A stretch of DNA of 45,874 bases from a virus. The notes beneath the pieces were generated by a model. The model was not told the DNA's origin. It did not search any database and worked only from the letters and a program-made list of their open reading frames with translations. The stretch is from positions 1 to 45,874 of the IMG/VR virus record IMGVR_UViG_3300030333_001531; one strand, 5' to 3'. The position numbers and the translations under genes were made by a program. Each line of letters starts with the position of its first letter. Within the stretch, counting starts at the first letter, position 1. This document shows, piece after piece, positions 1,459 through 33,031 of the stretch.

Positions 1459-1484
1459 TTCCTAGTGACTATTGTCCTCTTGTT

Positions 1485-1492: not shown

Positions 1493-1496
1493 TCTG

Positions 1497-7852: not shown

Positions 7853-7860
7853 TATTTATG
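7853..7860 (-). promoter_or_regulatory. Late-type promoter motif CATAAATA upstream of the 408-aa gene
   Basis: The minus strand reads CATAAATA, overlapping the stop codon of the 8391-aa gene and ending 20 nt before the ATG of the 408-aa gene. It is identical to the octamer before gp8. A promoter here would let the two fibre-like genes be transcribed without reading through the 25-kb gene. Confidence 0.55.
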
Positions 7861-10800
7861 GTGTTTCGGGATCTACTTCTTCTTCTCCGTACTGACTAAG
7901 ATCAGGAGCGTTCCAATCATCAGGGACTGTTGTCTCAACAACAATCTCTGGATTCTTATAACCAGAGCCTGGATTATTCATTTCAACACCAGCAACACCA
8001 ACTAGTGCTCTTATATTCCCATCAAATCCAGAGATAGAATCAATTCTCACATTAGGTCTAGATGTGTAACTAGAACCACCAGAAGTTACCTGTACCTGAT
8101 CAATAAATCCAGAAGTTATAATTGCTGTTGCTTTAGCATCTTGTCCAAATACTGATCCAAGATAGTCGAAAGTAATTAGAGAGTTTGAAGACTCAATAAC
8201 AGCAACCTCTCTGTCTGCAGTCTCACCTTGGATGTCAATAAAGTCACCAGGTTCGATAGGTGGAACAACTTCAGCAGCATCAACGTCTGCCTCAGAACCA
8301 ACGTATGAGAAGGCAACGAATGTGGATCCCACACGAGGAATTTCAGAGAAGATAATTCTAGAACCAACGATCTCGAAACCTACGCCTGGTTCCTGTATAA
8401 CACCATTTAAAGAAACAATGATATTATTTTCTGGACGTATGGTAGATGATTGAACACCTTCCGTAAGTGTTAGTGAGTAGAATACATCATTACGCTTGAG
8501 GTTGAATGACTGACGTAAGGAGTCAAACTCGAATGAAATATCATCCAATTGTCTCAACTTACCTACGTAGAATCCTGTGAAGGATGCACCTAGTTCTGGT
8601 GGTTCAGTAAACTGAATTCTATTAGAGAACGCTGTATATGCATTAGTACCACCTGGAGGTTGTAAAATACCATTAACGAATACCAATAGGTGACCATCAG
8701 GATCTGGAAGATAGTTAGTTCCATTATTAATGGATAAATCAAACGTATCTTGAATTCCATCAAATCCTTTGAATGCTCTCTTAACACGTGCCTTAAGATC
8801 AACCTTAGATTGAACTGCTGCCTTATAACCTCCAGGTCCAATAACCGAGTCTTTAAGATCAAATGATCCTGTGATATCACTTAAATACAATCTCTTATAC
8901 TGACCAGCAGGACGTATATCCTGTACCAATGCAGCACCAGCCCCTGCTGTTAACACTCTAGTAATTATTGATCCGTAACCTACAGGGAAGTTACCACCAA
9001 GACCATAATCACCTACGAGATCACCATTCGTAAGAGGTGTACCTTGGAAGTCGGCAATGTAAAGGAAATTATTATCTAGATCAACCTCAGTAATAATTGC
9101 ATAATTGCTTTGATCAGCAACACCACCAACAACTTTATAAAGTCTATTACCAACACTGAAGTCATTCAATCCACCAACAATTGAAATACCAATTCTCACA
9201 TATCCATTGGATGCGATTCTATCACCAACACCAACGTCTAAACCATCATACTTACTTACTTCAATAAACTGTCTGGAAGTTTCTGGATAAACAACGGAAG
9301 TTTGTTCAAATGAACCAACCAGTGTTTCAGTATCAACTGTTAGAGTACCACCAGTATTATCAAGAATAGCAGCTTCATTTCTAAGGAATGCTGTAGGTGT
9401 AGCAGAAGCACCACTGGTATATCCTTTAAATGGTACAGTTGCATCAAATTCACCATCTAAATTAATGATTTGTATACGATCCTCTATCAAACTAACCTGT
9501 GCTGTTGTGTTATTTGTAGAACCAACAACATAATCAGTAATAGACCAAGGATTACCAGTAACCTCGATATCTAAGTAACTAAAGTTTTCATCCGAATGAA
9601 TTCCGTATATAACACCAGTAACAGCTGGATCACCATTCTTAGAAACTGTTTCGTTCATGACCCAAGGACCATCAACAACATCACCATCAAAACGTAATCT
9701 CTGATAGATCTTAACAATCTCACCTCTGTTAGGAATGATAGTTTCTAACTCAGCGTAACTATCACTAGAAGTACCATAAAGATAATCGGAAGCATTTAAT
9801 CCACCACCCAATCCAACTGGTAGATTTCTATTACCATAAGTGTAAGTTGGAATAGAAATTCCATTATAAACAGTAACACCAGTATAGTAACTATCAAGTG
9901 CTAACTGTTCTTTAAGTAGTTTAATATTCTCACGAACAATTCTACTTACAGTTCTAATATCATAATGACTTGCTGCTTCTGTACTAAAGAACTTAAGATA
10001 ACCTGCTTGAGGAGAAGGACTTGTAAGACCATCTGTCATAGCAGCAATAATGTAATCTTCTAATTGTGTTAATGCGTATGTCTTAATATTAAATTCACCA
10101 TCAGCATAGAATACTTCACCAGTTGCTGAAGTGTATGGATCTAATACACCCTTTCTAAGTTTTGAACCCCAAGCATAAAGACCTTTAGTACCATCTCCAC
10201 TATATGAGATCTGATTATTCTCATTATATACATTAATCTTCGCTTTCAACTCAGTAAATCCAAATGATAATGTTGTTGTGATATATGCTCTATACCATCC
10301 ACCACCATAAGGAACAGCACCATAAGCATCACCTGTTATACCACCTTGAGGTATAAAGAGTGATCCAGTAGTACCTGAATTAGTATTAAGATCAAAGAAT
10401 ATATTCTGCTCACCAGCAGTACCATCATCAAGTACAATATGGAATCTAACTTGCTCATACTCTGCCTTCTTAAAGAAGCAAGAGAATGTATATTGCTGTT
10501 CATCTGAAGTACCTGAACCACCTTCGTCAAAACTATTAGTTGTATCATCCCAAGTAATATTACCATCATCAAAAGTATCAAATGCAGTTAGATCATATAT
10601 CCTATGCAAAGTATGCTCACCTGCATCACTAGAAGAAATTAACTTGGCAGCACTTGTACTATTATCTGGCGATTCTGTGAAATTATCACTGATACCAACA
10701 CCAGCACCAACCCAATCAGGTGTAAACAATTCTGGATTAGTGAATAAATTAAGACCAGATACTTGACCAGTAATATTAGATACTATATTCTTTGCAAAGT

Positions 10801-13800
10801 TTAATGTTCTTACATTACCTGGACTATTAATCCATGTGTAACTAGTTCCAACACCACTAACAGAAACTATAGCTTGAGCATTACTACGTGTACCAGTTAA
10901 TGTGGTATTAGTTGTCCAAGGAGTACCTACAAAATCACCAACTATTAAGGAATTGTTTTCTGAATTATATTCTAGAACTTTAGCAGATCCTTTATCAGAA
11001 GTAATTAATTCACCAACATCAAAAGTTCCAACAACATCTTCTATTACTATATCATGAGCAGTAGAACTATCAGATATATCTGTAGTAAGTAAATCATGTG
11101 ATAGGTTAGTAACAACACTATCCATAAAGTCATTATACAACCAAGTACCAGATCCGAATTGTGCATTAACTAAGTTTTGAATCTCTTCCTTATAATATCC
11201 TCTATTGTAAATAAGATTCTTAGCAGCACCCCTCATTGGTCTCTTACCTGGACAGATAATATTAATCGCAGTATTAACCAATTCCTTAATTCTAGATCCT
11301 ACAACTGTCATATCAGTAGGAGTCTCAGTATCAGTCCATACAGTCTCATTAGTATATTGAGCAGCATAATTAGGTGCTGAAGCTCCTGAATTCTTCTCTC
11401 TCAACTCACCCTTAACAGCATGTTCGCATAAGAATGCTAACTGTTCAATAGCATAAGTTGTTGCAAGTAATTCATCTTCAACATTAATAATTTGCATCAA
11501 GGATGATAGATAATATTCCATTGCAGCAACAGTACTATTATTACCACCAGTTTGTAAGTCAGAGATAATACCCAATATAATAAGTTTCAAATCTCTCTGA
11601 CATGTGGTTGTACCACCTGGTTCTGGATATGTGAATGCAAACTGCTGAGAAGTATCTAACATGTAAGTAAACTCAGCAGATGTTAGAGAAGTAATTTCAC
11701 TAGCAATAAATTGTCTATTGAAGTAAAGTCTATCAGCAGCAATTGCAAAGTCTGCATTAGTAGGAGCAATAATATCGTTAGCAATAGTTACTAAGTTATC
11801 AATAGCATCCTTAACGTTTGTACAATCTGCTGGTGCAGTTACACAATCAGTAACAGCACTCTGGAATGTATGTAATGTAGTGTTAGAAGAAATTCCAACA
11901 TTAACTGTAATTGTTGTAGCAGTATATTCTGTAATCTTAAGATTCTGCTGATATGCAGGGTCAGTCGTTCTTGGATATGTGTGATCACTACCATTATTAT
12001 CTTCAAGACAACGGAATGTTAATCCATCCAATGCAATGTTAATCATTCTTCCCTTAACCAAGGTATGAGAACCAATAGTTAGAGTTAAGTCACCTGTTGT
12101 TGGCTCGTAAGTTGCAGCAGTAGGTGTGAATGAAGCAGCTACAGATTGTGTAATTCCCCAAGCACCAACAATAATCTTATCAGTATTACCTGTTGTTAGA
12201 TCACCATTAATTGCTTGCTTCATATAGTATGCAAGACGCTCATGAGCATAAGCAGACTGGAATACTTGTAATCTAATATGTAATAGAATATCATTAGCAC
12301 CAAGATATCTCTTCGCAACATTTACAGTATTGAAGTTACCACCATCTCTAAGATCTTTAATAAACTCTTGAAGAATTAATGCTAAGTCAGTCTTACATTG
12401 TAAAGTACCTGCACCACTTCCATCAAAGTTTCTAGGCATATCCAAAGCAAGGTCTGGATAACGCTCTAACATATCGAAAGATGCTTTATCAACAATAGGA
12501 CCAGCATTTAACTGAACTAAATTAGCAGCATCTTGGAATCTATATTTACCTGAAGCACCAATTTGATTAGTAAACATGATATCTTCAGTACCATCATGCC
12601 AATTAATTGGGAACTCTTCTTCATAATAAGAATATATTCTACCACCAAGGAATTCATGTGGAGGTGAATATTTAACAAGACTACCAAGATAATCAACAGG
12701 TGGAGTCTGTATTGCAGAATCTAATGTATCAGTAACAATACTAATTAAGTTCTCTATAGTTGTTTGTACATCAGTACAATCAGATGTATTATAATCAAGA
12801 ACTTTAACTCCATTTGCAGTTGTTTGTGCAAAATTGTGTATTGTTAATTGATGCTTAACTGATCCAGGATCACAAGATACGAATGTGTGTGTTGCTTGTG
12901 GGGTATATGAAACAGTATTAGAACCTTGGTTACCTACAAATGTATGTGTGTAATCACCACCAGTAGAAATAACTGCTCTAGTAAGACAATTAGCAACTGC
13001 AGAATGGAAAGTATGTGCAGTTATATTAGTAGAAGGAATTACATCTAATACCTGTATATCAAATGTATTAGTTTGTACATTTGCAATTGGTATCCACTGA
13101 TTACTTACAGGATCAGTTGCTCTTGGATATGCATGAGTTGTTGCATGATTATCATGAGCACAAGTAAACTTAAATCCACCGTCAGAAATCTTAACATGCT
13201 CACCATTAGCAAAACCATGATTAGCAAGTGTTACTGTAATTACACCTGTGTTTGGATTATATACAGCATTAGTTGGTGAATACTTATTATTTGCATTTTG
13301 GAATACATGAGTTGTTGTATTACTTGAGGTTCCTACATCAAGAGTAACGGTTGTAGGAGTTACAGCAGTAATATTAACAGCATCATTATATGCTGGATCA
13401 TCTTGAGATGCACCACCTTGACCATTTGCACGAGGATAAGAATGATCAGAACTTTGACCATCTTGATCACAACGGAACACAAGTGAATTGTTAGCAATTC
13501 TAACTGCTGTACCAGCAGTTAAACTATGGTTACCAATAGTAATAGTAAGAAGTCCAGTTCCAGGAACAAACGATGCATCAGTTACATCATATCCCTTAAT
13601 AGGAGATTTACCAACATTAACCGTAATTACACCAGTCTGTCTTCTAATACCCTTTGTAGCAGCTTTCTGGAATACATGAGTTGTAGTATCAGATGAAACT
13701 CCAACATTAACTTCAAATGTATCATTTGTCTTATTAGAAATCTGTAACCATCTTCCTGAAGGATAATCAGTAGGTCTTGGATATGCATGATCTGTAGTAT

Positions 13801-22800: not shown

Positions 22801-25800
22801 AATCACCACTGTGATCAACAATCTTAAGAATTCTAGGTCCAATTTGCCAACCAGAGTTTGTAGAAACATATCCAGTTGCTGTAGCAACCTCTAATGATTC
22901 ACCCTGATAAACCAATTCACCTTCTAAGAAAGTAGAAGTAATAACATTTGCTTCTGCAGTACCACCAAATGACTCAGTTAATACACTTTGACGACCTGTA
23001 CCAGCATTAACAAATGTAAGTCCATCACCTAATTCTGCGTTAGCTTCAGTGATAGCAATTTTTAATTGATCATCTTCTAGTGAATTTGCTGAACCAGAAA
23101 TAGCATAATAAGTAGTAATTCCATTAAGACGACCAACAGCACCAGCAGATAGTGGGAAATCAGCACCATCTCCAGTATCAGTCACTGATAATGAAATTTC
23201 AGCACCATTAGGTATTCCATGAGGATAAGCAAATTGTAATAAACCTAAGTCTAAGTTAACAACATAGTTGAAAGAAGATCTTAAACTTACTGTTGGTGTG
23301 GATGAATAACCAGCACCAGGATCTTTAACAACAATATTATCCAATCTACCATTCTTGATAGATGCTTCTGCTTGAGCACCAGATCCACCACCACCTTGAA
23401 TTATTACAGCAGGTGCTAATGAATATCCAGAACCTGGATTTGTAACAGTAATACTTTCGAGAATACTTGTAGAAGTTAACTGAGCATTTAATGGGAATGT
23501 AATCTCAGGACGTAATGTGTAGTCATGAGGATAATCATAACCAAAGTTATTGTTCTTAAGTTTTTTAATCTTACCAACTTTATCACCTTTGGTAAAGATT
23601 GATGATTCACTACCAAATGGAGGAATAACAACAGTCAATTCTGCACCAGATCCTTGTAACCCTGGTCCAAGAATACCTGGAATTGATTCAATATCAATAT
23701 ATGCATCGGTATATGCTTTACCTGGAGAAGTAACAACTACTTCTTGTATCTGACCTGGAATTGTAATACCATCATCATCAGTTCCATCATTAACTACAAT
23801 AGTAACTAAACCACCTTCCCCATCTCCCAATATAGGAACAGAGTTATAAACTCCAACACCATATTCAGTGCCTGGTTCATTAATTTGTACTCTTTCAATT
23901 TTTCTTGTTGATTGAATACCAGTAACAATAGGTAACTTAGTATAAAAACCACCTGGATTAACAATACGAATGTCAGCAATAGAACCGACTGCTTTTAAAG
24001 AACTGGTACTATAAGAAGCTTGATTTACATCAGCATTTCCTTCTGGTTCATTAGCAAGAAGGAATTTAAATACATCTGGTCCTTCAGTAATAGTTGCACC
24101 AGCAGTACTAGAAATTGTAAACGTCCCTGTATAAGGAGAATTAGTAACATCAAGATAACTACCTTTAATTACAGGTGAATCATCTCCAGTTCTTGATGGA
24201 TCAAAATAATATGAAATATTAGTAACAATATCTGGATCAATCTTTAATTTAACTGTGGGTGTAGGTTGTCCCTGACCAGTTATACCAGGAGTACCAATTC
24301 TTTCAATAGAGTTGAATGAATACTCCAATTTATTAAGGTTATCTTTAGAGAATGATAAATTACCTCCAACCATTGATGAATGACTTAGGTCAAACAAATA
24401 TTGATGACCATTATACATCTTCAATACAGGAGATTTAACAAATACACTAACAGTTGCTGCTGAAGTTGCTGGAGAAGTCACAGCAACTTGTGGTAACTTA
24501 TATGTAAATTCTAATGGACTAATAACAGTATCTACTGGGAATGTTCCATCATACTCATCATATGTGGTTCCACCTGATTCCTGTGATGGATTACCATCAA
24601 TATAAACCATTTCAGCAGGACTTAAATAATGACTAGTACTGGTAATCACATATACTTCATCAGTATTAGAAACAGAACTAACTTGAACAATCTTTGTTAA
24701 ATTAGCAGTTAGAGTTATTTTTAAAACACCTGCCAAATTAGTAATCTGACAAGTACTATAAGCAGTGTTAAATGTTATATCACTGGAAGTAATATCAACA
24801 ACAGATCCAGGAATATACGCTGATCCACCTGCAACTTCATCTATTCTGATTGAATAATCATTTACATCAAATGGTTTTAATCTTGCATAATCATCTAAAT
24901 TATTAGTTCCACCTATCTCTTCAGGAGCATCAAAGGTAGAAAGATCTATATCAAATGTTCCTGGAGTTGTATTATTAACTTCAACAAAATTATAATTTAC
25001 AATTTCATTAACATCCTCTGGAAGAGGACCAATAATACCATAACTATCTTGCTCACTAAACTGCTGAGTAACTAACTCACCATTATTCAAATCATCAGTC
25101 CAAGGATTGTGTATAATAGCAAGATATATCTTCTTATTAGATGTATCCTTACGGATAATATATCCACTATTAATAAATGTGCCGTTCTGATTTTGAAGAA
25201 CTAATTTAGAACCAACTGTAAAATCAAATGACTGGTTTAAAGTAAGTTCTTGTATGTTATTAATAACAACTGTTGATGTTGGTTTAATATAATACCTATC
25301 TTTAACACGAGCAGATACCTTCAACTTTTGAGAACCTGGAGAAGGAACTGTTGAAGTTCTAGCACTCCAAACATCAGTAGCATATGTTAATGTCTCAGTA
25401 TCTTGGGACATTAATGTTGTTGCATCATCAAAGTCTAAAGATTGGAATCCAGCATCTGCTAATTCATATCCAGTACTACCAATAGTTAACGATGTTCCAG
25501 TTACAGGAGCAATATCTGTTCTTGCAAATCCGATTTGTGTATTCGTCTGTAATCCTTGATCTCCTAAACGATCAGAATCAGCATCTTTATCAATTTTTAA
25601 TCCAAAACCATTATAATCGATATAATCATACCTATTAATCTGACTAGCAAACCATGCAGTATCTGTCCAAGCATAACTAAATCCAAATTGAGATCCTTGA
25701 GGAAGATCATTTATATCAGATGGTGAAGTTGGAACAACACCTCTATTTCTTACCCTAACATCATCAAGATAGAATTGACCTTGTGTATCTTTAGCAAAAT

Positions 25801-28800
25801 CATTAACACCAGCACCAAATCCAGGTCCAACACCAAAGTATAGATCCTTACCAGCAAATGATGTATTTGATATAGTTCCACTAGCTACCTGAATACCATT
25901 AACGTATGATTTAAATACATTACCATTTTTAGTTATTCCAACACTAATCCAAGTATCATTAAGCATTACAGAAGATGCACTTGAAATTGCAGTAGCATTA
26001 ACAAGTTGAGTTGTATTATTAGCAATAGTTAAATCTAAACCACGACCAGTTCCAAATCCTAACCAAAGACCACCAGTAGGATCTTGAGAACTACCAATCT
26101 GGCATAGAGTCATAAGATTCTGACTTAAACTAAATGGGAGACCAGACTGACCATCTATGTATACCATCATTTCGATAGTAAAGTCTCCATCCAAAGTAGT
26201 TCCTAAATCAGAAGAAGATGCTTTAATGTGTCCATTTTCCCAAGTAGTTTGAGTATTAGCTGGTACATTACATCCATCAATTTTTGCTACACCATTCTGA
26301 TAACGTATAGAATTATTAGCACTTTGATCAGTAAGAGTATAATGACCTGTAATATCTGTAATTGTAGAAGTAAAGTCTAAGATAAACTCATTTCTGTTCC
26401 ACTGTTCTTGACCGTAAATATAAACATCACCTGAATTATCTACATCCAAACTCTTTGCAGTAATACCTTCAATTCTGTTAAGATTAAACTCATTAGTACT
26501 ATGTTTCTTCATAGTACCATCATACCCAATCTTAATTGTTCCTACAGTAGTTTTCTTAGTAGTTTCATCTGCTTTGGTGTATGCAACATTAAGATCACCA
26601 AATATATCAATAACACACTTATCAACTATATGAAGTTCTCTACCTGTAGCAAGATAACGATAATTCCAAATAATATCACCATCGGTATTTAATTTACCTA
26701 CCCAGAAACTATCTTGAGTAATATCATCAGACTTCAATCTAGTTCCTGCAGTAATATAGAATTCATTAAATTCATCAATAGTTAAACTAGGATTAATTAA
26801 AGAATAAACAGTATTGCTAAGTTCTTTAACCCAATCAACTGTAATAGCATTTACACCAATAGTAGCCTTACCAAAAGCAACATTAATATCTTTTGAATCT
26901 GCAGCAGTTGATGTTTCCATAGTGAAGTATACACTATTACCAACAACTATCATATCTGTCAATCTTTCAGATAATGACTGAGAAGCAATCTTTCTCTTAA
27001 CAGCAAAATTACCTGTTGTATCAATTGATGCTATAAATGCATCATCTGGATGTAATGAGTTTGTATTAGTATATCCACCAATAATATAACGAATATCGGA
27101 ATATTTCTTGATAACAGTTACATTATCGGCACGATTAGCACCAGATATACCAGCATATCCTTTTTGGAACTGTAAAGTAGCGTCTAAACCATCATCAGTC
27201 TGTTCATACTTACATAAGATAATATCTGGATTATATACATCTAAAAGATTTGCATTAGGTCTATTGTTACCAACAACCCATATGTCATTATTATCTACAA
27301 ATAATTTTTGGAACTCTGTATAATTCTGTCCATCAGTACTTTCTAAACTTCTTTCCCATTCCTTAACACCCAAAGAGGAGTACTTGGCAATAAATGCAAC
27401 TGTATTACCACTAGCATCCTTAGTTTTACCACAGAAGAAAGTTTCTTTAGCATCATTTACAACAATATCATTAACGGAAACATAATTATTATTGTCTATA
27501 GTAGTAACATAATAATCAGCTTTCTTAAATACTTGTGGATGACTTAAAATAACACGTGGGTTTGTTGTATAATTAGCACCTGAATTAATAATATTAACAG
27601 TATCAATAGATCCTACAGAACTAACTACTGCTTCTAACTTACCAGCAGTACCGTCACCATCAATAATAATAGTAGGTGGAATTTCTTCATCATATCCAGA
27701 ACCTTTTTGTTCAATTACAATTGATTCAATACCTTTAATTTGACGAACAACAAAAGTTTTGTTCGTATTTTGCATTATAGGAGTATAATCTACAAATACT
27801 TCATCACCAGCAACCAAATTATGAGGAACATTAGTGTCTAAAACACCGTAATTTAATCCATTAACATTTTCAAAAGTATACTGATCTATTGCTTCACCCT
27901 TAATTTTAGAAATACGAGCAGAAACACCAGCACCATCAGTACCTTCATTGTCAAATATAAGTATATCATCTACCTGATAGTTCTTTCCTGGGTTTTCAAT
28001 AGTAAATCCAGTTACAGAAGCATCTTCAAACTTAGTGATAGTTTCAACTTCAATATCAACTTTAGAGTCGAATTGAACTTTAGGGAAGTAATCGTATAGT
28101 TGTAATGGTGATTCTTCAAATAATTCAGCAGGATTATCTGTTTCGTCTTGAGTTATAACACCATCACGGTTAATATCTTCAACTTCAAAGAGAATAATAT
28201 CACCAGCTTCAGTTGTTAATGCAGCAGTAGAAGCATTAGGTGTTCTTTCAACATCAATATCAACATTTTCATAAGGATCCCTATAACGCACAACACCAGT
28301 AGGAATATTTTGCTGAATAGCACTTGTACTTAAATTCCAAGTATCAACAACAGAGTTATAATTTGGTCCAATTACATATGGGAATAATGCATTACCATCT
28401 TCAGTAGCATCTATAGTAACAAAATAGCAATATCTACCTTGAGGATAGTCTGGAGTCTTACAAAAACGACCATTGTATTGATCTAAATCCCCTAAACCAA
28501 AGACATATTCATAATCTTCAACAAATTTACCAGCAGGATACAGTAAATCTCCATTTGTATTAACATCAGTAAGAAGAGGTCCATCTGTTCTTACAGGATA
28601 AGGATTAGTAGTTGCATCAAATATAAGATTTTCTTTTAATCTAAATGATGTACCTAGTCTAATTACAGCAGATCCTTGATCTGTTGGATCTGTATACCCA
28701 TAAGGACCATAAATTGGATTACCATCAAATGCCCAACCAATAATAGGTGAGTGTGCTAATTGATCTTCTTGCTCTTTAATTTCTCCATATGGATTCTCAA

Positions 28801-31800
28801 AAAGATTATCACCTAAAATATACCTCATTTTTTGAGGATTTGATAGGTGAGCATATTCACCACCATACTCATTATTATATCCAGTAAATACAGCACCTCT
28901 AGCAGAGTCAAATGTTGATGTAGATTCTAAATTATAAGTCCATTCAAAAACATTTGCACTAAATTTTGCATCCTGACCAACAGAAGTTAGATTAATAACT
29001 GTAGTTCCTTGAATATAGTTAATACCACGGTTAATAATCTCAATTCCAGTAACCCTACCAGCATTTTCACCATCAACATCAATTGTTGCTCTTGCTATAG
29101 CACCGAAACCATCACCTTGAATAGTAACTTCAGGTGCAGTAGTGTAACCTTGTCCAGCAGAGATTATAGCAATAGATATAATTCTTCCATTATTAACAAT
29201 AGCTTGTGCAACAGCACCACTACCAGAACTTAGTGATATAGTAGGTTTTGAAGTATATGCTTGACCACCATTAGTAACAGAAATTGCTTGGATAGGACCA
29301 CGAACAGATGCAGTACCTTCAGCACCAGTTCCACCACCACCAACTATAGTAATAGAAGGTTGTGAAGTATATCCAGTACCACCAGTATTAATTAGAATAC
29401 GTGAAACCTGACCTTTAGTGATAATTGCTGTAGCAGCAGCACCAGATCCATTTCCACCAACTATAGACACCAATGGTGAAGATGTATATCCAGAACCACC
29501 ATTAGTAACAGTAATTTCACTAATAGAACCGTTAACGGTTACTGCAGCAGTTGCACCAGTACCCCCACCACCAGAAACTGTAATTGCTGGAGGAGAAGCA
29601 GCATCATAGTCTATACCAGAATTTTCTATATCAATACTAGTAACACCACCATATGTCTTACTTAAATCTGACTTATAAGACCATATAGAGACACCATTAA
29701 CCCATGTACCAATAGGACCAGGCTTAATAACGTCTTTAGTTGAAATTGTTTGTGCAAGTTTAGGGAACCTATTTAATTTACGTTGGTTACCTGGAAGAAG
29801 TGCAGATCCTGGAAAAGGACCAATTTCATAGTTTGGAATACCTGTAGCAGCAACATAAACATATTGATCATTAAAAAATGAGTTTTGTACGTTTGTTGTG
29901 TATGGACTAATAGCATTTTCAATAGCACTATTAGCAGATTTACCTTTATTAAGGTCAATAGATACAAGAATATTTCCTTGTGGTTCTACTGTAGCTGGTT
30001 GAGGTAAATTATATTGGAAAACTGTCTCAGTATCTCTAGATGTTACCAAAAAAGTTCCATTATAAATGATTGGGTTAGCACCATATATGGTAACCTGATC
30101 TCCAACCAATAGACCATGAGGATTGGCACAAGTTACAGTAGCCGATTGATCGTTAACACCACCATAAGTGATGGATGTAATTTCAATCAATTTCTTAACA
30201 TTATACAACCAAGTTGTTAAATCTGGACCAATACCAGTACCACCTAATTTAGAAACTGTTAATTTATCACCAGGAAGATAATAAGATCCAGTATCTGTTA
30301 AAGTTGTTTGTTGTGCATCAACGATACCAACAATATTCATCACAACTTCTTGTTGAGTACCCTTATTAATATAAATTCTAAAATTAGATTTTATCTCAGT
30401 TGCAGAGTCCCAATCTTCAACGATACCATTAACAGAACGAGTACATTCGATAAACTGGTTTAATGACTTCTCTTTGTATTGTACAACTTCACTACCACCA
30501 ATAACAAACTCACCGTTTCTTTCTGGCCAACCAATAGTAGAGTCAACTGTAATAATGCTATCAGTTTCGTTTAAAGGCTCACCTAATCTTGTTTTATATG
30601 GAACAGTAAACTTTCCATTAATAGTTTCTTCTGATAAAACAAGTTCAAATATCTCAAGTTCTGATGTTTTAATAGAAATAAAGTTCTCTACAAGAGCACT
30701 TGCTTGTAAAACATTAGGATCAGCAATATCAGCATCCTGGGTTACAAGACCATCTTTAATATTAACAGGATCACCACTGACTAATGATGCACGAAGAATT
30801 GTATCTATAGACCAAGTAGCATCAGATGGTTTAATAATCTGATCTTTAGGATAAGATATACTTACAGTCTCACCATATAATAATTTAAACAAATATGCAA
30901 TACTAAAAGATGTACCTTTAGATGAATAAAAATCTTTAATAGATTTTATAGCATTTCTAACATCAATTTTAGAATAATCTAAACTTGGAACATCTGGAAG
31001 GAATTGTTCTGTATATTTGTCTAAAAGTCTCTTAATAAAGAGTTGATCTAAACATTTTACAGGTGTATCAACAGTTGCTATAGAAGCAACAGTATTATTT
31101 GAAAATACTGCATTTCCATCTTCAGTATAAGCAGTAATACCACTTGCAGCACGAGCACACCCTTCAAATTGTGCTTTTGTATATCCAGTACCTTGTTGAT
31201 TTATTGTAAAACCAGTAACTTGATTCAATCCAACTGTAGCAGAAGCTTCTGCAGATGGTGGATCTTGAATAAAGATTGTTGGTGGTTCTGAAGCACTATA
31301 TCCACTACCAAAATTAACAATATTAATATCAATAATCTGTCCATTGAAAATTGATGCTACTGCTGTTGCTCCAGTACCACCAGCATATGCTCCAGTACCA
31401 TCTGTCCTATCATCTAAAATGTATACAGAAGGAACATCATCATATCCACTACCACCACTTAATAATTCAATAGAAACAACTCTTCCATCACCATCAACCT
31501 TTGTTTCTAATACTTGAGCACCTACAGGATCCTTTATTGCAATTCTAGGAATTACTTCATATCCTTGTCCAGCATTCAATATTTGAACACTTTCAACTGT
31601 ACCGTATGTTGGATCTAAAACTGCCCTTAAAGATGCCTTAATACCATCTTCACCAGTTGGTTCATCAACATAAATCTCAGGAACTGTAGTATATCCAATA
31701 CCTCTTTCGATAACAGGAATAGTACCACTGAATGAACCACCATTTATCGTTGGAGTGCCTAGTTTAGCACCTCCAGGCTGCCTAAAAGTCAATCTAGGTG

Positions 31801-33031
31801 TGAAAGTATATCCACTACCAGAATTCTCTATATTTAATGCACTAACAACTCCATTTGTTACAGTTGCTTTAATCTCAGCAACTTTTGCACCACTCTTTGT
31901 AGGATCTTGAACAACTACTGTAGGTGGGTTGGTATCACTATAACCTCTACCACCATCAAGTAAAGAAACTTCTTTAACACCGTTAACTAAAGCTGTAGCA
32001 GATGCACCACTACCAGATATACCTTGAATAGAAACTTTTGGTGGATATTCATACCTGTAATTATCACCATTATTAGTTACAGAGATTCCTGTAAGTTCTG
32101 TATCATCATTAATACGAGCATAACCAACAGCATTAGCACCAAAAGAAGGTATAGGTGCTTCAATAGAGAACAATTCTAAGTATCTACCATTTAAAGGTGC
32201 TTCTTTAAATATAAATTGATCTCCATCAAGATAAAACTCTTCTTTTGGAATTAAAAGTTGATTATCATAAATTGCGTAAATATATTCATCAATAACTGGC
32301 TCATATCTTTCGCCATTCTTAGTAATTGTAAATTGCCTTTTATTATCACCAAAACTATTAGAAATATTGTCTATTTGGGAAATATTATTCTCAATAAAAC
32401 CACTTAAGTAAGTAATACTTGTGGAAGTAGGATCATCAGCATCAAGTTTTGCTCTAGGTGCAGATGTGAATACTATATCAGTACCATCTATAGTAAAATC
32501 TAAAACAGGAACTTGAATTTCACCATATACCTTAACAATTAAATGTTGTGGAGATGGTGCAGCTATAGGATTATCTTGTGATGTTAACGGAAATCTTTGC
32601 TTAACTCCATCAAAATCTTGTAATGGACTTGCAAGTCCAGTCCATTTCAATTGAACTTGATCATAAGAAATACCTGGACTTAACGCAATGTTAGGTGAAG
32701 GTGTTGTCTTTTCATAATATACAACTTCATCACCAACTAAAAATGACCCATTTGTTTCTAAAAAAGCATCAACACTCTCTACAATTATAGTAGAATCAGT
32801 TACACTAACAGGTTCTACAACCTTTGTAGCTCCATCTAAAATACCAACATCCAGTTTATCGATATCTAGATATTGGAGAAAATCATTAACTATATTTTGT
32901 CCTAATCCAGTCTTTTCTTGAGATCTATAATAGTACTCAATAAATTTATTAAAAAGCGGATAATCCTGTTCAATAAAGGCAGGAGTTAATGACGCTACTG
33001 ACTGGGAAACTTTATTCGTATTTTTAGACAT
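7856..33031 (-). CDS. 8391-aa giant baseplate protein with gp7-like segments
   Basis: One uninterrupted frame of 8391 codons; gp6 ends 6 nt upstream, and AAGG overlapping its TAA can serve as the ribosome site. T4-gp7-like segments: residues 16-60 (AFIEQDYPLFNKFIEYYYRS), about 660-730 (IKDFYSSKG...YLFKLLYGETVSI, compare gp7 YDFYSTKG...FLFKVLYNEEVEI) and about 3481-3506 (WKEILIRNVHPASFKVFGE, compare gp7 RFVHPVGFGF). Other modules: GGSGY repeats (about 308-615, 1137-1348 and later); YHYH-type domain (about 1425-1560); possible beta-propeller (about 1849-2212); LamG-like domains (about 2214-2432 and 4059-4231); ligand-free cupredoxin-like fold (about 2863-2967); 23 Cys/YPR repeats (about 4307-7055) interrupted by helical C..D..GGN modules; a carbohydrate-binding-like jelly roll (about 7425-7638); NGxxQxPG modules near the end. 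T4 gp7 is 1032 aa, so this is about eightfold longer. Inferred role: the gp7 position of the wedge plus peripheral adhesive decoration. Confidence 0.8.
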   Translation of the reverse strand: MSKNTNKVSQSVASLTPAFIEQDYPLFNKFIEYYYRSQEKTGLGQNIVNDFLQYLDIDKLDVGILDGATKVVEPVSVTDSTIIVESVDAFLETNGSFLVGDEVVYYEKTTPSPNIALSPGISYDQVQLKWTGLASPLQDFDGVKQRFPLTSQDNPIAAPSPQHLIVKVYGEIQVPVLDFTIDGTDIVFTSAPRAKLDADDPTSTSITYLSGFIENNISQIDNISNSFGDNKRQFTITKNGERYEPVIDEYIYAIYDNQLLIPKEEFYLDGDQFIFKEAPLNGRYLELFSIEAPIPSFGANAVGYARINDDTELTGISVTNNGDNYRYEYPPKVSIQGISGSGASATALVNGVKEVSLLDGGRGYSDTNPPTVVVQDPTKSGAKVAEIKATVTNGVVSALNIENSGSGYTFTPRLTFRQPGGAKLGTPTINGGSFSGTIPVIERGIGYTTVPEIYVDEPTGEDGIKASLRAVLDPTYGTVESVQILNAGQGYEVIPRIAIKDPVGAQVLETKVDGDGRVVSIELLSGGSGYDDVPSVYILDDRTDGTGAYAGGTGATAVASIFNGQIIDINIVNFGSGYSASEPPTIFIQDPPSAEASATVGLNQVTGFTINQQGTGYTKAQFEGCARAASGITAYTEDGNAVFSNNTVASIATVDTPVKCLDQLFIKRLLDKYTEQFLPDVPSLDYSKIDVRNAIKSIKDFYSSKGTSFSIAYLFKLLYGETVSISYPKDQIIKPSDATWSIDTILRASLVSGDPVNIKDGLVTQDADIADPNVLQASALVENFISIKTSELEIFELVLSEETINGKFTVPYKTRLGEPLNETDSIITVDSTIGWPERNGEFVIGGSEVVQYKEKSLNQFIECTRSVNGIVEDWDSATEIKSNFRIYINKGTQQEVVMNIVGIVDAQQTTLTDTGSYYLPGDKLTVSKLGGTGIGPDLTTWLYNVKKLIEITSITYGGVNDQSATVTCANPHGLLVGDQVTIYGANPIIYNGTFLVTSRDTETVFQYNLPQPATVEPQGNILVSIDLNKGKSANSAIENAISPYTTNVQNSFFNDQYVYVAATGIPNYEIGPFPGSALLPGNQRKLNRFPKLAQTISTKDVIKPGPIGTWVNGVSIWSYKSDLSKTYGGVTSIDIENSGIDYDAASPPAITVSGGGGTGATAAVTVNGSISEITVTNGGSGYTSSPLVSIVGGNGSGAAATAIITKGQVSRILINTGGTGYTSQPSITIVGGGGTGAEGTASVRGPIQAISVTNGGQAYTSKPTISLSSGSGAVAQAIVNNGRIISIAIISAGQGYTTAPEVTIQGDGFGAIARATIDVDGENAGRVTGIEIINRGINYIQGTTVINLTSVGQDAKFSANVFEWTYNLESTSTFDSARGAVFTGYNNEYGGEYAHLSNPQKMRYILGDNLFENPYGEIKEQEDQLAHSPIIGWAFDGNPIYGPYGYTDPTDQGSAVIRLGTSFRLKENLIFDATTNPYPVRTDGPLLTDVNTNGDLLYPAGKFVEDYEYVFGLGDLDQYNGRFCKTPDYPQGRYCYFVTIDATEDGNALFPYVIGPNYNSVVDTWNLSTSAIQQNIPTGVVRYRDPYENVDIDVERTPNASTAALTTEAGDIILFEVEDINRDGVITQDETDNPAELFEESPLQLYDYFPKVQFDSKVDIEVETITKFEDASVTGFTIENPGKNYQVDDILIFDNEGTDGAGVSARISKIKGEAIDQYTFENVNGLNYGVLDTNVPHNLVAGDEVFVDYTPIMQNTNKTFVVRQIKGIESIVIEQKGSGYDEEIPPTIIIDGDGTAGKLEAVVSSVGSIDTVNIINSGANYTTNPRVILSHPQVFKKADYYVTTIDNNNYVSVNDIVVNDAKETFFCGKTKDASGNTVAFIAKYSSLGVKEWERSLESTDGQNYTEFQKLFVDNNDIWVVGNNRPNANLLDVYNPDIILCKYEQTDDGLDATLQFQKGYAGISGANRADNVTVIKKYSDIRYIIGGYTNTNSLHPDDAFIASIDTTGNFAVKRKIASQSLSERLTDMIVVGNSVYFTMETSTAADSKDINVAFGKATIGVNAITVDWVKELSNTVYSLINPSLTIDEFNEFYITAGTRLKSDDITQDSFWVGKLNTDGDIIWNYRYLATGRELHIVDKCVIDIFGDLNVAYTKADETTKKTTVGTIKIGYDGTMKKHSTNEFNLNRIEGITAKSLDVDNSGDVYIYGQEQWNRNEFILDFTSTITDITGHYTLTDQSANNSIRYQNGVAKIDGCNVPANTQTTWENGHIKASSSDLGTTLDGDFTIEMMVYIDGQSGLPFSLSQNLMTLCQIGSSQDPTGGLWLGFGTGRGLDLTIANNTTQLVNATAISSASSVMLNDTWISVGITKNGNVFKSYVNGIQVASGTISNTSFAGKDLYFGVGPGFGAGVNDFAKDTQGQFYLDDVRVRNRGVVPTSPSDINDLPQGSQFGFSYAWTDTAWFASQINRYDYIDYNGFGLKIDKDADSDRLGDQGLQTNTQIGFARTDIAPVTGTSLTIGSTGYELADAGFQSLDFDDATTLMSQDTETLTYATDVWSARTSTVPSPGSQKLKVSARVKDRYYIKPTSTVVINNIQELTLNQSFDFTVGSKLVLQNQNGTFINSGYIIRKDTSNKKIYLAIIHNPWTDDLNNGELVTQQFSEQDSYGIIGPLPEDVNEIVNYNFVEVNNTTPGTFDIDLSTFDAPEEIGGTNNLDDYARLKPFDVNDYSIRIDEVAGGSAYIPGSVVDITSSDITFNTAYSTCQITNLAGVLKITLTANLTKIVQVSSVSNTDEVYVITSTSHYLSPAEMVYIDGNPSQESGGTTYDEYDGTFPVDTVISPLEFTYKLPQVAVTSPATSAATVSVFVKSPVLKMYNGHQYLFDLSHSSMVGGNLSFSKDNLNKLEYSFNSIERIGTPGITGQGQPTPTVKLKIDPDIVTNISYYFDPSRTGDDSPVIKGSYLDVTNSPYTGTFTISSTAGATITEGPDVFKFLLANEPEGNADVNQASYSTSSLKAVGSIADIRIVNPGGFYTKLPIVTGIQSTRKIERVQINEPGTEYGVGVYNSVPILGDGEGGLVTIVVNDGTDDDGITIPGQIQEVVVTSPGKAYTDAYIDIESIPGILGPGLQGSGAELTVVIPPFGSESSIFTKGDKVGKIKKLKNNNFGYDYPHDYTLRPEITFPLNAQLTSTSILESITVTNPGSGYSLAPAVIIQGGGGSGAQAEASIKNGRLDNIVVKDPGAGYSSTPTVSLRSSFNYVVNLDLGLLQFAYPHGIPNGAEISLSVTDTGDGADFPLSAGAVGRLNGITTYYAISGSANSLEDDQLKIAITEANAELGDGLTFVNAGTGRQSVLTESFGGTAEANVITSTFLEGELVYQGESLEVATATGYVSTNSGWQIGPRILKIVDHSGDFAENEKLTGVISKSSGIISDLKVARGVLDIGSITKTTGQFIDDVGKPSEIIQKIQDSYYYQDFSYAVKSAVSISEWKEILIRNVHPASFKVFGELNLNEYGQIPNKDTFFQLTKSVELAQEAVVPNIQSFALVEPIYSEFNNTEVLFRQKRLTSSENILTSVVQRVDDISDLFDGERIAFPLTVDGGTVVANANQLMIVLNGVVQNPDTSFQIQGDSIVFSEPPSPPASVKYANITINQIQAQELIWTNQSGIYPTLGNTLSGTSSNAKLTVTKVVGESIFGYITEGTFIIGELCTVSATGFSGNLDGITPIANIGLFTYGETVTNLQGDTAKVEQINLETGAEAPICDLRYAIGPSTTDIEVVPVDGTGPLPENTIILTENDGFRIGSEIIEVEAVVNGAESTTLTVVRGTLGTQAVSAQEGTPVYSTDISVTDSLTLSKTAGTYQSTPGLYNIGLNDVIIGAKSGVIASVTSSAVYQDPVTGEFIGQVNISPGSSFFGLLFNRITSTSYPNVVIDDISKSQISIVDFEDNSTAYNTNFPSNEIVSNYVIPYNNPTGTLQVGENIRNYKIEYGNNSGEFTAGEDGRVRKISMYDKEGEGFFNSGQVIRTRDTKAEVIGYNQARGIVYLGKIGRSKQNGEDYFNFVFTGDAEISSTQKKFGDTSLKLDGTGDYISVDSTSEIAFGTGDYTIEFWCRPDTAALAGLAEIYDTRTSDPEISGRIYLNGAQIRYNVNGSDVVTSGATVIPTNNTWYHIAVSRSGTTIKMFLDGVQVGAGTDSSTYVARPIRIGSTYQATNSFAGYIDEVRISDVARYTATFTPPAGIHQGDNDTKLLLHFDSTNGDKFVDDWSGGESFTNAEYFNNDPIVASRRYIGKHTYVGGTVSNAVIIQQGIIPKDVSDATYNGLTGDLVLTIGSHSYTTSNTIKIAHNSLTFTCDMDNNATQHTYPRITDPVYDTAIPITAVTATTITVNVGVAIQQGFAKNSHRYNNAGQLILKNLEFIAKEVVYMINQKFPNFTVIGGDVNCEDDVKDICRSIVADMRNGGNNKTWLAVSYYIDRTDTANVKLLNIETEVRETIWAYNKLDQMLEFIVTNSEWKPVGDHGLKQYTDTSITDSSTTSFTYKTPTGATYDASTGDLTLTIDGHNLYGRRAVTVQAGTSYNAETGILSVTSASHLFQNGDKVMLEKESLTFTCDMDGHKTEHKYPRASDPALAGWLTVSNAQTNTFDLDVGKSPLLVFNPTGGSYDASTGHMKLHIGDHILTPGTNIKVAPNSIYFRCTSDGLQAVKKYPRTTDPIAGKPTPIAYDGEQLSASFANYTPTTGVMKITAGKTFTPLDATYNAVNGMMNLTIPDHGLVAGDTIRLEDGAITFTCAMDDHYSTHAYPRTTDPKRGLQLSITNVQTHSFSVNVGISPKVQLTPNNGIYNPTTGMMTLEFATPHGLTAGTSIKIAKESLTFSCGFGGASGDAAKKSYPRTTDPFYDTAVKIESATTNAITVKILENVPSTNTDAHTWVGATTGCIHTGGDYEHIFHSALTNGVVANKHGLINGDRIKIATNSLTFTCNLDDQETEHSYPRSTDPYNGRWLAVSNVGANTFDVNVGISPDTSSHTFKSAYTNGITKRDGSITLDVGKSPRVGYDVAGATYDPLTGDMVLNVGIHNLLENQTIQIADNGLSFTCSMDGNATTHSYPRLTDPSRKHALNITDVGETSKTITGAVYTPTSGQMSLTVTGHNLNPATTHTPTDATYNPATGELELTIVGHSFDNGDRVLLDDDCLTFTCAKDNHQSQHTYPRASDPSSMKWLSVQNVHVDRFTVNIGKSTDLSDHRFISATSTCLKRAKDSVKFDDDSITFRCDKDSQASDHTYPRVSDPVHQQWIPITSAPDANTIVLNVGKSSDTSTHVYQTATSGGLKVQTGYITVNVGKSPTVSHNPSSVSYNPATGNMDMNIGTHYLRGGSQHTASTASYEASTGIMTVTVANHGFSVGDYIKFAENSITFTCTMNGNATNKQYPRSTDPSFNKWLPVVGITTDTFKVNVGASPLVKHDVTTATYDPATGLIEATIGSHTLEVGEPIMLKDYGFTFTCGLDGDTVAKTYPRETGFIQNAGIADPAWRTPVVITAKTATTITFNVGTSSDVSAHNWTGGTSSEAVISGGDYNHTFVTASTNGVYRTNETVMIGEESMTFTCDFNGDGNSTEKKYPRASGSNAPGGADYAYNKPVPITSVGTNAHTPTLATYTPATGVMNIQLVNHGFALSTNHTVTAATFTPSTGVMKLTINGHGFQEGDRVKLADGSLRFTCAKDGNASNHDYPRASDFASNRWLPIFNVSTNFFEVNVGNMFGPAPISHTTTHAFVSAVANGLTKANSAVKLVENALTFTCAKDSGASEHSYPRRTDPSFDEWLPLSNVLADSFDVYIGKSSDLSSHTFVSAVTGGLHSQSGVISLNVGISTDTTTHNYVAATKLTPTNAAYNPTTGVMTITVNDHNMANGEQVMIDDGAIKLSCAFGGASGSAAQKDYPRSSDPASGRWLSVSNVSTNTFDVQVLDVVPSTNTDTHSFVSAVSNSITRGILRTGGNHTHTFANARKNAVIAGGIYRHEFVSPSAYTVSDAAYNPTTGVMTLTIPNHGFESGDHIKMDDESIIFNCSFGGSATDKSYPRSSDPISGKYVPISNITADTFTIQVLDSAPSTNTDAHTFVSASTGGVHRAVLHTGGVYNHTFVSATANGIYKQGQAIEILPDALKFTCDMDGAETTHPYPRTTDPAYKSALPITHYTTDTITVNVGSTDFGSNNNYTSYSPTFANYDPSTGILILTLENHSLTQDDYVTLEDNSIKFTCQMDNNQTIKSYPRPGHDTRAARRKLKIIGTTDNTISLNVGTAQANQTFTPTGATYDAVTGDMTLTIGQHGMRVGANITIANNSLRFTCEMDGNTANKDYPRATDPYGDLKSIPITHVGHTHATVTNAVYTPGSGLMVLTVPAHGYSNGDYIQIVDESLTMRCLLDGNTTDHAYPRPTDYPSGRWLQISNKTNDTFEVNVGVSSDTTTHVFQKAATKGIRRQTGVITVNVGKSPIKGYDVTDASFVPGTGLLTITIGNHSLTAGTAVRIANNSLVFRCDQDGQSSDHSYPRANGQGGASQDDPAYNDAVNITAVTPTTVTLDVGTSSNTTTHVFQNANNKYSPTNAVYNPNTGVITVTLANHGFANGEHVKISDGGFKFTCAHDNHATTHAYPRATDPVSNQWIPIANVQTNTFDIQVLDVIPSTNITAHTFHSAVANCLTRAVISTGGDYTHTFVGNQGSNTVSYTPQATHTFVSCDPGSVKHQLTIHNFAQTTANGVKVLDYNTSDCTDVQTTIENLISIVTDTLDSAIQTPPVDYLGSLVKYSPPHEFLGGRIYSYYEEEFPINWHDGTEDIMFTNQIGASGKYRFQDAANLVQLNAGPIVDKASFDMLERYPDLALDMPRNFDGSGAGTLQCKTDLALILQEFIKDLRDGGNFNTVNVAKRYLGANDILLHIRLQVFQSAYAHERLAYYMKQAINGDLTTGNTDKIIVGAWGITQSVAASFTPTAATYEPTTGDLTLTIGSHTLVKGRMINIALDGLTFRCLEDNNGSDHTYPRTTDPAYQQNLKITEYTATTITVNVGISSNTTLHTFQSAVTDCVTAPADCTNVKDAIDNLVTIANDIIAPTNADFAIAADRLYFNRQFIASEITSLTSAEFTYMLDTSQQFAFTYPEPGGTTTCQRDLKLIILGIISDLQTGGNNSTVAAMEYYLSSLMQIINVEDELLATTYAIEQLAFLCEHAVKGELREKNSGASAPNYAAQYTNETVWTDTETPTDMTVVGSRIKELVNTAINIICPGKRPMRGAAKNLIYNRGYYKEEIQNLVNAQFGSGTWLYNDFMDSVVTNLSHDLLTTDISDSSTAHDIVIEDVVGTFDVGELITSDKGSAKVLEYNSENNSLIVGDFVGTPWTTNTTLTGTRSNAQAIVSVSGVGTSYTWINSPGNVRTLNFAKNIVSNITGQVSGLNLFTNPELFTPDWVGAGVGISDNFTESPDNSTSAAKLISSSDAGEHTLHRIYDLTAFDTFDDGNITWDDTTNSFDEGGSGTSDEQQYTFSCFFKKAEYEQVRFHIVLDDGTAGEQNIFFDLNTNSGTTGSLFIPQGGITGDAYGAVPYGGGWYRAYITTTLSFGFTELKAKINVYNENNQISYSGDGTKGLYAWGSKLRKGVLDPYTSATGEVFYADGEFNIKTYALTQLEDYIIAAMTDGLTSPSPQAGYLKFFSTEAASHYDIRTVSRIVRENIKLLKEQLALDSYYTGVTVYNGISIPTYTYGNRNLPVGLGGGLNASDYLYGTSSDSYAELETIIPNRGEIVKIYQRLRFDGDVVDGPWVMNETVSKNGDPAVTGVIYGIHSDENFSYLDIEVTGNPWSITDYVVGSTNNTTAQVSLIEDRIQIINLDGEFDATVPFKGYTSGASATPTAFLRNEAAILDNTGGTLTVDTETLVGSFEQTSVVYPETSRQFIEVSKYDGLDVGVGDRIASNGYVRIGISIVGGLNDFSVGNRLYKVVGGVADQSNYAIITEVDLDNNFLYIADFQGTPLTNGDLVGDYGLGGNFPVGYGSIITRVLTAGAGAALVQDIRPAGQYKRLYLSDITGSFDLKDSVIGPGGYKAAVQSKVDLKARVKRAFKGFDGIQDTFDLSINNGTNYLPDPDGHLLVFVNGILQPPGGTNAYTAFSNRIQFTEPPELGASFTGFYVGKLRQLDDISFEFDSLRQSFNLKRNDVFYSLTLTEGVQSSTIRPENNIIVSLNGVIQEPGVGFEIVGSRIIFSEIPRVGSTFVAFSYVGSEADVDAAEVVPPIEPGDFIDIQGETADREVAVIESSNSLITFDYLGSVFGQDAKATAIITSGFIDQVQVTSGGSSYTSRPNVRIDSISGFDGNIRALVGVAGVEMNNPGSGYKNPEIVVETTVPDDWNAPDLSQYGEEEVDPETP
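12870..19445 (-). repeat. Main array of 21 Cys/YPR protein repeats
   Basis: Within the giant gene, 21 tandem units occur here, with one further copy on each side (about 19850-20105 and 11870-12140), 23 in all. The unit is roughly 75-110 residues: YNPTTGxMTLTIxxHGxxxGDxIKI, then SLTFTCxxDG, then xHxYPRxTDP, then WLPISNVxxxTFxVNVGxSxxTxxHxF. I checked all 23: the Cys is present in every copy, and the residue two before YPR is always His (14) or Lys (9). At DNA level the copies have diverged strongly. Several units are half-length, showing two preferred joints. Confidence 0.9.
28990..29620 (-). repeat. Glycine-rich GGSGY repeat block
   Basis: Encodes about five consecutive ~40-residue units of the form ITVTNGGSGYTSSPxVSIVGG(N/G)GSGAxAxAxI. 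The translated pattern is a regular beta repeat with a turn at GGxGY and a second Gly-rich turn. Another block of the same family covers about 31190-32110, and isolated units occur near 23280-23470, in the 1700-aa gene and in the 805-aa gene. Confidence 0.8.
31190..32110 (-). repeat. Glycine-rich GGxGY repeat block near the N-terminus of the giant protein
   Basis: About six units of the GGxGY family lie between the N-terminal gp7-like helix segment and the DFYSSKG segment, for example VSLLDGGRGYSDTNPPTVVV and VSIELLSGGSGYDDVPSVYI. They look like an insertion of beta repeats into a gp7-like framework. Confidence 0.75.

Follow-up and report, generated by a model that had tools for sequence, protein, structure and literature searches.

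A giant gp7-type baseplate wedge protein of a T4-like cyanophage, with a core split by long inserts

The giant protein encoded in the window (the whole 45,874-nucleotide stretch of viral DNA analyzed here, IMG/VR record IMGVR_UViG_3300030333_001531) is almost certainly gp7 from a T4-like cyanophage. It retains a gp7 core, which long inserts split into three blocks, A, B, and C (Table 1). Taken as a whole, the explanation that we favor, and hold with good confidence, is a gp7 core seated in the baseplate wedge and carrying inserts that would contact the host.

The gene is a single intact frame with an ATG start, 8391 codons, and no internal stop, and the window sequence contains no N. Genes follow in the order gp25, gp6, giant gene, gp9/10-like gene, 1700-aa gene, gp8. 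The initial annotation had placed the frame between gp6 and gp8, the T4 position of gp7; the intactness of the 8391 codons and the adjacency to gp6 stand, but gp8 is not the next gene. The gp25-gp6-giant adjacency is T4-like, whereas the gp9-like and 1700-aa genes that separate the giant gene from gp8 depart from a gp6-gp7-gp8 arrangement. The annotated order in syn9 (gp25, gp6, giant gene, gp9/10-like gene, large gene, gp8) is that of the window. P-SSM3 carries gp25-, gp6-, gp7-, gp9-, and gp8-like genes with 4.4 kb unannotated before gp8, the S-SSM5 locus agrees in order over the part compared, and S-M1 shows a run of similar gene lengths under uninformative labels. Within the same tail-gene region the window also holds a host-type metabolic gene, for heme oxygenase (37033-37710, minus strand; PF01126, E 6.7e-68), flanked by oxygenase genes; three genes of 2OG-Fe(II) oxygenase type lie around it (35706-36380, 36383-37057, and 37710-38999, minus strand; PF13640, PF13759, and PF13759).

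Table 1. Features of the giant gp7-type gene and its neighbors in the window (residue numbers are those of the giant protein unless stated otherwise).
Feature	Position	Strand	Details and evidence
Giant gp7-type baseplate wedge protein	7856..33031	-	8391 aa, 903 kDa, pI 4.6
gp6, expected wedge partner	33038..35062	-	PF21379 E 4.2e-17; directly upstream of giant gene
gp25	35063..35482	-	PF04965 E 6.8e-13; upstream, adjoining gp6
gp9/10-N-like connector	6606..7832	-	PF07880 E 5e-11
1700-aa gene with YHYH and one YPR unit (own residues 160-251)	1497..6599	-	Pfam and YPR profile
gp8, cut by contig end	1..1458	-	PF09215 E 2.1e-11
gp7 core block A, residues 3-35 (T4 gp7 644-676)	32927..33025	-	Compact-relative HMM, E 4.8e-8 in window, 0.0032 in T4 gp7
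Insert 1, residues 36-664, in the helix-helix loop joining A and B (compact IMG/VR relatives have 4-13 aa there)	31040..32926	-	Block-gap table; GSGY-motif beta repeats by eye
gp7 core block B, residues 665-750 (T4 gp7 730-758), plus the first part of the domain-V-like barrel, up to about residue 808	30608..31039	-	E 2.2e-21; PF23786; BLAST with BUCT-ZZ01
Insert 2 (residues ~809-3437), probably within domain V of gp7, ahead of its last strand	22721..30607	-	BLAST; block-gap table; compact barrel match to T4 gp7 765-847
YHYH domain in insert 2, residues 1381-1542	28406..28891	-	PF14240 E 4e-29
Laminin_G_3 / ConA-like lectin domain, residues 2266-2430	25742..26236	-	PF13385 E 7e-9, 36.4 bits vs 27.6
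gp7 core block C, residues 3455-3509 (T4 gp7 862-894)	22505..22669	-	E 2.5e-20 in window, 2.1e-4 in T4 gp7
Second Laminin_G_3 / ConA-like lectin domain, residues 4078-4223	20363..20800	-	PF13385 E 5.8e-22; S-layer domain protein 4qvs E 1.6e-8
YPR repeat array (residues 4311-6683) holding 22 of the 23 units, each about 75-100 aa	12983..20101	-	YPR profile; three-unit model
23rd YPR unit, residues 6973-7064	11840..12115	-	YPR profile
Conserved C-terminal part, residues 7695-8376	7904..9949	-	42% identical to end of 6619-aa S-SZBM1 orthologue

The frame is no assembly accident, because seven other IMG/VR records (G001-G007) carry the same protein as single open frames of 8394, 8391, 8396, 8397, 8210, 8115, and 8114 aa. 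Whole-protein identity to the window protein is 94.4% for G002, 88–89% for G001, G003, and G004, and 66–67% for G005-G007. The units of the YPR array differ strongly among themselves (mean 38%, maximum 55% amino acid identity, with no exact repeat of at least 24 nt within the array), so there is no reason to fear that assembly collapsed exact repeats or expanded them falsely. Searched with residues 1-753 as the query (E ≤ 1e-5), a set of 50,697 phage records yielded the protein in 473; 456 of these are named Synechococcus phage, Prochlorococcus phage, or Cyanophage, and in 290 at least 80% of the query is covered in one place. Among the relatives compared, whose gp7 forms range from 607 to 8397 aa, the window lineage has the largest.

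The three blocks occur in the same order in the window protein and in T4 gp7. The block B model matches T4 gp7 at E 1.2e-10, and no block model matched any of four reversed sequences. IKDFYSSKG begins at residue 698 and WKEILIRNVHPASFKVF at residue 3486, and both match T4 gp7; block C is identical over 55 aa in the window protein, G004, and G006. The three segments likened to T4 gp7 in the initial annotation do match that protein, but the N-terminal one maps to T4 residues 644-676 and not to the T4 N-terminus. Because block A starts at residue 3, the first ~640 residues of T4 gp7 have no counterpart, and only the C-terminal ~250 are retained. T4 gp7 has these ~640 extra residues before block A, with gaps of 53 aa between A and B and 103 aa between B and C, whereas the extra mass of the giant lies between and after the blocks.

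Direct comparisons with T4 are weak. In BLAST against T4 gp7 the DFYS..LFK segment reached E 8e-4 and the HP..F segment E 0.2, a PHROG 964 match has E 6e-4, and a phmmer search of residues 1-753 against the PDB returned chance matches only, so the T4 link needs compact relatives. Pfam divides the family: PF23786 (Baseplate_wedge, 'Phage baseplate wedge subunit') matches the window protein at residues 686-732 (32.6 bits; cut-off 27) and all 36 compact relatives but not T4 gp7, whereas the narrow T4-based gp7 models PF21428, PF21427, and PF21456 match T4 gp7 and neither the window protein (E ≤ 0.01) nor any of the 36 compact relatives. Since these models match disjoint sets, the T4 link rests on profile-profile and profile-sequence matches. 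For domain VI (PF21456) there was no Pfam match after block C, in a search that is insensitive for a diverged domain.

Compact relatives provide the bridge. BUCT-ZZ01 encodes a 607-aa protein after gp6, and Pelagibacter phage Mosig one of 874 aa in the same place. The BUCT-ZZ01 protein matches the giant at residues 659-808 (E 5e-13) and 3438-3508 (E 1e-11), and it matches T4 gp7 at residues 645-756 (E 0.001) and 866-922 (E 0.05). We kept 80 IMG/VR loci from a search with this protein and examined 52 of them; the compact profile comprises 39 sequences, of which the complete ones are 587-996 aa long and a few are cut by contig ends. In hhalign, the 39 compact sequences aligned with 17 T4-type gp7s at 98.2% (E 3.4e-14), columns 5-232 corresponding to T4 residues 642-852, against 0.3% (E 0.23) for a reversed T4 control. 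Taken singly against T4-type gp7, the blocks gave weak (A, 23%), strong (B, 97%), and middling (C, 78%) values, with 0.1-0.7% for reversed sequences. When compact profile A1 (36 rows) was compared with PDB sequences, the two best of 11 matches were gp7 of KP1 (4.3e-12) and T4 gp7 (4.4e-8).

Structure prediction for a 591-residue compact relative (L018) pointed to the same protein. The AF2 model is modest overall (mean pLDDT 59.9), with a confident barrel. Two of its 299 Foldseek matches had E ≤ 0.001, namely 9f4a_A0 and 5iv5_BJ from the KP1 and T4 baseplates (TM about 0.1, rmsd 19), chains that we take as gp7 from entry, chain length, and residue range; the barrel match has E 2.4e-4. VIA ranked 5iv5_BJ first (Z 8.8, rmsd 1.9, 78 aligned, T4 residues 765-847), followed by 9f4a_A0 (Z 8.3, rmsd 15.8, 145 aligned) and 5hx2_A (Z 8.3, rmsd 14.5, 143 aligned), with unrelated rows starting at Z 7.1 and below. 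The evidence for a gp7 fold is thus the barrel of the compact relative, the helical part having no confident placement in that model. T4 gp7 (5iv5, 5hx2) has its core blocks in common with the giant, and its domain-V-like barrel is seen in the compact relative. The repeat part of compact gp7 (A1 about 200-340) also resembles the T4-type tail sheath protein gp18 (PDB E 1.5e-5 to 0.0016); Gp18_dom_I of Pfam is found in 7 of 36 compact members (best E 2.7e-7), and VIA against the sheath gave Z 6.8, rmsd 2.8, and 74 aligned residues, hinting at a beta module common to sheath and wedge.

A clear gp7 homologue elsewhere in the same genome, named in the initial annotation as evidence against its reading, was sought in relatives, the window being only a genome fragment. 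None was found in eight whole-genome records (S-SSM5, S-M1, syn9, S-PM2, P-SSM2, P-HM2, and S-SZBM1, these seven titled complete genome, and P-SSM3) or in the 179-kb near relative G001. Searching the eight records with the compact profile gave 110 matches at E ≤ 0.01. Outside the giant gene, every match stays within the repeat part of the model (207-345) and misses blocks A and B as well as the HP..G..F motif of block C. At E ≤ 1e-8, all 20 matches, in seven of the eight genomes, fall inside the giant. Among the matches listed for G001 (16 of its 17), those outside the giant lie at 169-324. Two annotated second copies were set aside. The second 'gp7' of S-SSM7 (NC_015287; 67650-76655, or L201 27651-36656; 3001 aa) lacks all three blocks and has 12 YPR units, so its label looks wrong; in S-SSM7 the gp7 core is carried by a 3007-aa gene that follows gp6. 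A 615-aa second 'baseplate wedge initiator', so named in the S-SZBM1 virion table (PMC9146016), aligns with the compact profile over the repeat part alone (model 210-328) and was not counted as gp7.

These results bear on whether the giant is gp7 at all or an unrelated fiber protein that took over the gp7 locus. Most of its sequence is unlike T4 gp7 and the T4-based Pfam models give no match, the syn9 record says 'putative fiber', PHROG 5342 (tail fiber protein) shares repeats with it, and PHROG 701 is filed under head and packaging. Given the collinear A/B/C core, the bridging compact relatives, the PDB and fold matches to gp7, and the lack of any other gp7 core in the genomes searched, we regard a locus takeover as very improbable.

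The giant being gp7, its extra length can be located relative to the core. In a block-order table of 76 proteins, A, B, and C appear in order in 73; the exceptions are T4 gp7, whose block A missed the threshold of 0.05 in this larger set, the second S-SSM7 'gp7' gene, and L050, which lacks block C. Since the models were themselves built from 39 of the 73, independent evidence comes from the remainder, namely 20 long and 14 further compact members. The long members (1915-8397 aa; 9 are IMG/VR proteins, and the other 11 come from phage records and the window) all have the blocks in order, with extra length between and/or after them. Three classes of A-B gap occur (4-13, 114-137, and 627-632 aa); the B-C gap measures 159-567 aa in compact and 1570-2792 aa in long members; and the tail after block C in long members runs from 15 (S-B68) to 4883 aa. 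Within the group of P-SSM3, S-SSM5, syn9, and the window, inserts 1 and 2 are near-constant at 627-632 and 2697-2792 aa. The S-BM1 frame runs off the record end and has one stop in its translation, and the P-SSM2 gp7 length of 5195 aa is the annotated value.

We consider it likely that the insertion places are fixed, at the A-B helix loop, probably in domain V, and at the C-terminus. In the model, the strand that immediately precedes block C seems to close the compact barrel, and everything else between B and C would then be inserted ahead of this strand. Insert 2 is probably inside domain V because the model range 133-361 contains only 78 aligned residues, a placement to which the strand list also contributes. 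The proposal of the initial annotation that gp7 was enlarged by inserts at fixed sites is supported for these three places and for all 20 long members, but the core that was kept is the T4 C-terminal part and not the whole gp7 framework.

Much of inserts 1 and 2 is occupied by GSGY-type beta repeats, recognized by eye, and recognizable domains are distributed over insert 2 and the stretch after block C (Table 1). A beta-propeller suspected by eye at residues about 1890-2260 was dropped because neither Pfam (E ≤ 1) nor a sequence search of the PDB returned anything useful for it. The YPR array lies in the C-terminal part, and a non-YPR, partly helical-looking stretch follows its unit 1. Each unit has a conserved Cys: residues 4300-7070 contain 34 Cys against 0-10 in five other regions, and Cys is invariant in A2 columns 39 and 139. 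Numbers of units vary among relatives, with 20-23 hits in G001-G007, 13 (some partial) in P-SSM3, 6 in P-HM2, 2 in S-SSM5, and 1 each in syn9 and S-M1; the profile search found none in S-PM2, S-SSM7 gp7, ACG-2014f, S-B68, or S-SZBM1. Since units also occur outside gp7, in the 1700-aa neighbor and the second S-SSM7 'gp7' gene, these baseplate-region genes draw on a common module pool.

A three-unit YPR model (residues 6015-6297, 60 rows; mean pLDDT 81.7) is nearly all beta, and its pTM of 0.42 suggests flexible joints between units. Foldseek gave nothing at E ≤ 0.001 for this model, the best match being the phage phi92 endosialidase (E 3.8e-3). Among the matches listed by VIA, which cover residues 1-105 of the model, the best are the same endosialidase (4hiz_A) at Z 7.3 (rmsd 2.2, 74 aligned) and, at Z 7.1 (rmsd 3.0, 73 aligned), the E1 FCCH region of Uba1 (9qgg_B); the tool calls Z 8 telling. 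Pfam matches of YPR rows to the E1_FCCH and endosialidase families are weak (10 and 16 of 60 rows) and fall below the cut-offs: E1_FCCH (PF16190) scored 14.3 bits against 29.5 for the window piece, with a best E of 0.01 among the 60 rows, and End_beta_barrel (PF12195) reached a best E of 0.0089. Cthe_2159 was matched by 10 of 60 rows (best E 2.4e-8). An iota-carbonic anhydrase match to the YPR profile (E 1.6e-4) was discarded, its two stretches alone giving E 5.5 and 10. The YPR unit thus bears a likeness to E1_FCCH and phage endosialidase beta-barrels, short of Pfam cut-offs and of Z 8, and differs from both in its tandem array and in the conserved Cys and YPR motif of each unit. The endosialidase barrel helps bind polysialic acid.

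Core and inserts evolve at different rates. Between the window and G006, block C shows 0 differences over 55 aa and dN/dS is 0.05 for block B and 0.09 for block A, as against 0.50 for the YPR array (371 gapped positions), 0.61 and 0.71 for the lectin-like domains, and 0.17-0.76 for other insert regions. The contrast is smaller for the nearer G004 (core 0-0.10, array 0.24, lectin-like domains 0.17 and 0.24). In both pairs tabulated, dN/dS is below 1, with no sign of positive selection. A core that is kept while modules drift and change copy number fits host contact, and also fits plain relaxed constraint.

A further indication comes from experimental coevolution. During 500 days of coevolution with Synechococcus WH7803, S-PM2d081, a hypothetical protein of 3048 aa, is reported to have acquired nonsynonymous mutations early and late, most of the early ones being already present in the deposited S-PM2d genome; mutations in gp8 and in the short tail fiber arose as well (PMC9910659). 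We identify S-PM2d081 with the giant gp7 of S-PM2 (p084) by length and order, because p084, which lies between gp6 and gp8, has 3048 aa and p091 (53491-63507) has 3338 aa, as does S-PM2d088. This orthologue has no YPR units.

The lectin-like and YHYH modules, the fast-changing inserts, and the S-PM2d081 mutations together incline us, by a modest degree, to think that the inserts may contact the host. They might instead be structural, bracing the baseplate, tying neighboring wedges, or covering the tail tip without touching the host. The near-constant lengths of inserts 1 and 2 in the P-SSM3/S-SSM5/syn9/window group would suit such a role, as would dN/dS below 1 in both pairs and the occurrence of GSGY-type repeats in other phage genes and their resemblance to part of the T4 sheath protein gp18. 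It accounts less well for lectin-like domains in the inserts, for array units gained and lost between 0 and 23 among relatives, and for an orthologue that mutated during coevolution, and we judge a purely structural role possible, if somewhat unlikely.

T4 heads use a prohead protease, and a similar proteolysis could cut the 8391-codon product into several mature proteins, leaving no giant arm. Virion data argue against such cleavage, which we think improbable. A table for CsCl-purified S-SZBM1 gives one entry, S-SZBM1_208 'Baseplate wedge initiator', of 6619 aa and 724 kDa with 71 peptides, 13.5% coverage, and emPAI 0.41 (PMC9146016); an entry of this kind is still compatible with cleavage. 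The annotated S-SZBM1 gene after gp6 has exactly 6619 aa and holds blocks A, B, and C. The same table includes a 691-aa wedge subunit with emPAI 0.23, whose length is that of the gene next to the giant (PMC9146016). T4-GC969, the label of the S-SSM5 giant, was detected in S-SM1 virions (Sullivan et al. 2010, PMC3037559).

The initial annotation held that gp7 usually goes unrecognized in cyanophages, which is incorrect: the records of P-SSM2, P-SSM4, P-HM2, and S-RIM8 A.HR1 say gp7, P-SSM3 has 'similar to gp7', and the S-SZBM1 paper has 'baseplate wedge initiator'. Public labels for the giant gene nevertheless vary (gp7, 'virion structural protein', 'putative fiber' in syn9, 'YadA domain protein'). 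Pieces of the giant, the array excepted, match PHROG 701 (6136 positions) from position 2 to 6134. PHROG 701 and PHROG 19630 are filed under 'head and packaging', yet match gp7 along its length and over its first 1270 residues, respectively. Cyanophage gp7s (PHROG 701 and 2885; P-SSM2, P-SSM3, P-HM2, S-SSM5, syn9, S-SZBM1) share the locus and, where checked, the A/B/C core. The window giant differs from these six in length (8391 aa against 4454-7312 aa) and from the five in which YPR units were counted (P-SSM2 left out) in unit number (23 against 0-13). Work on huge phages mentions proteins of up to 7,694 aa (PMC7162821). Both the gp7 name and giant size are therefore already known; what is new, as far as we searched, is the map of the split core together with the insertion places and the YPR array, with no description of the split core or array found in literature searched by title and abstract, a scope mostly outside subscription journals.

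The T4 baseplate has six copies of the wedge protein gp7, which binds gp9 through one of its domains and whose domain A swivels when the baseplate changes (PMC3004832). This protein forms a (gp6)2-gp7 heterotrimer, to which the 2:1 heterotrimer of TssG with TssF in type VI secretion has been likened (PMC6300606); we take the likeness of TssG to gp7 from that published description only. By analogy with T4, each of the six wedges of the baseplate would hold the giant's gp7 core together with a pair of gp6 chains. The inserts would leave the core at the loop of the first helices, at a loop probably in the domain V barrel, and at the C-terminus, bearing beta repeats, a YHYH domain, two lectin-like domains, and, in the window lineage, 23 tandem small beta domains. 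Six 903-kDa chains might form long, flexible skirts or arms around the baseplate that touch the host surface at many points, and if there are six copies the giant adds about 5.4 MDa per baseplate. Such arms could help trigger the baseplate, a job for which T4 uses separate pin and short-fiber proteins. A bolder version, which we consider doubtful, is that giant gp7 took over the receptor work of the T4 pins and short tail fibers, the contraction trigger of each wedge being joined to a string of glycan-binding beads and the YPR number, from 0 to 23, acting as an evolving dial of reach or avidity for host surface polysaccharide.

The 20 long members spend most of 6 to 25 kb on the giant gene, under discordant public labels. 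The split-core map gives these genes one name and one rule, in which the core is kept and three places grow, and it shows where structural work should look. With it, S-PM2d081, whose mutations in coevolution had no explanation, is tied to the baseplate wedge.
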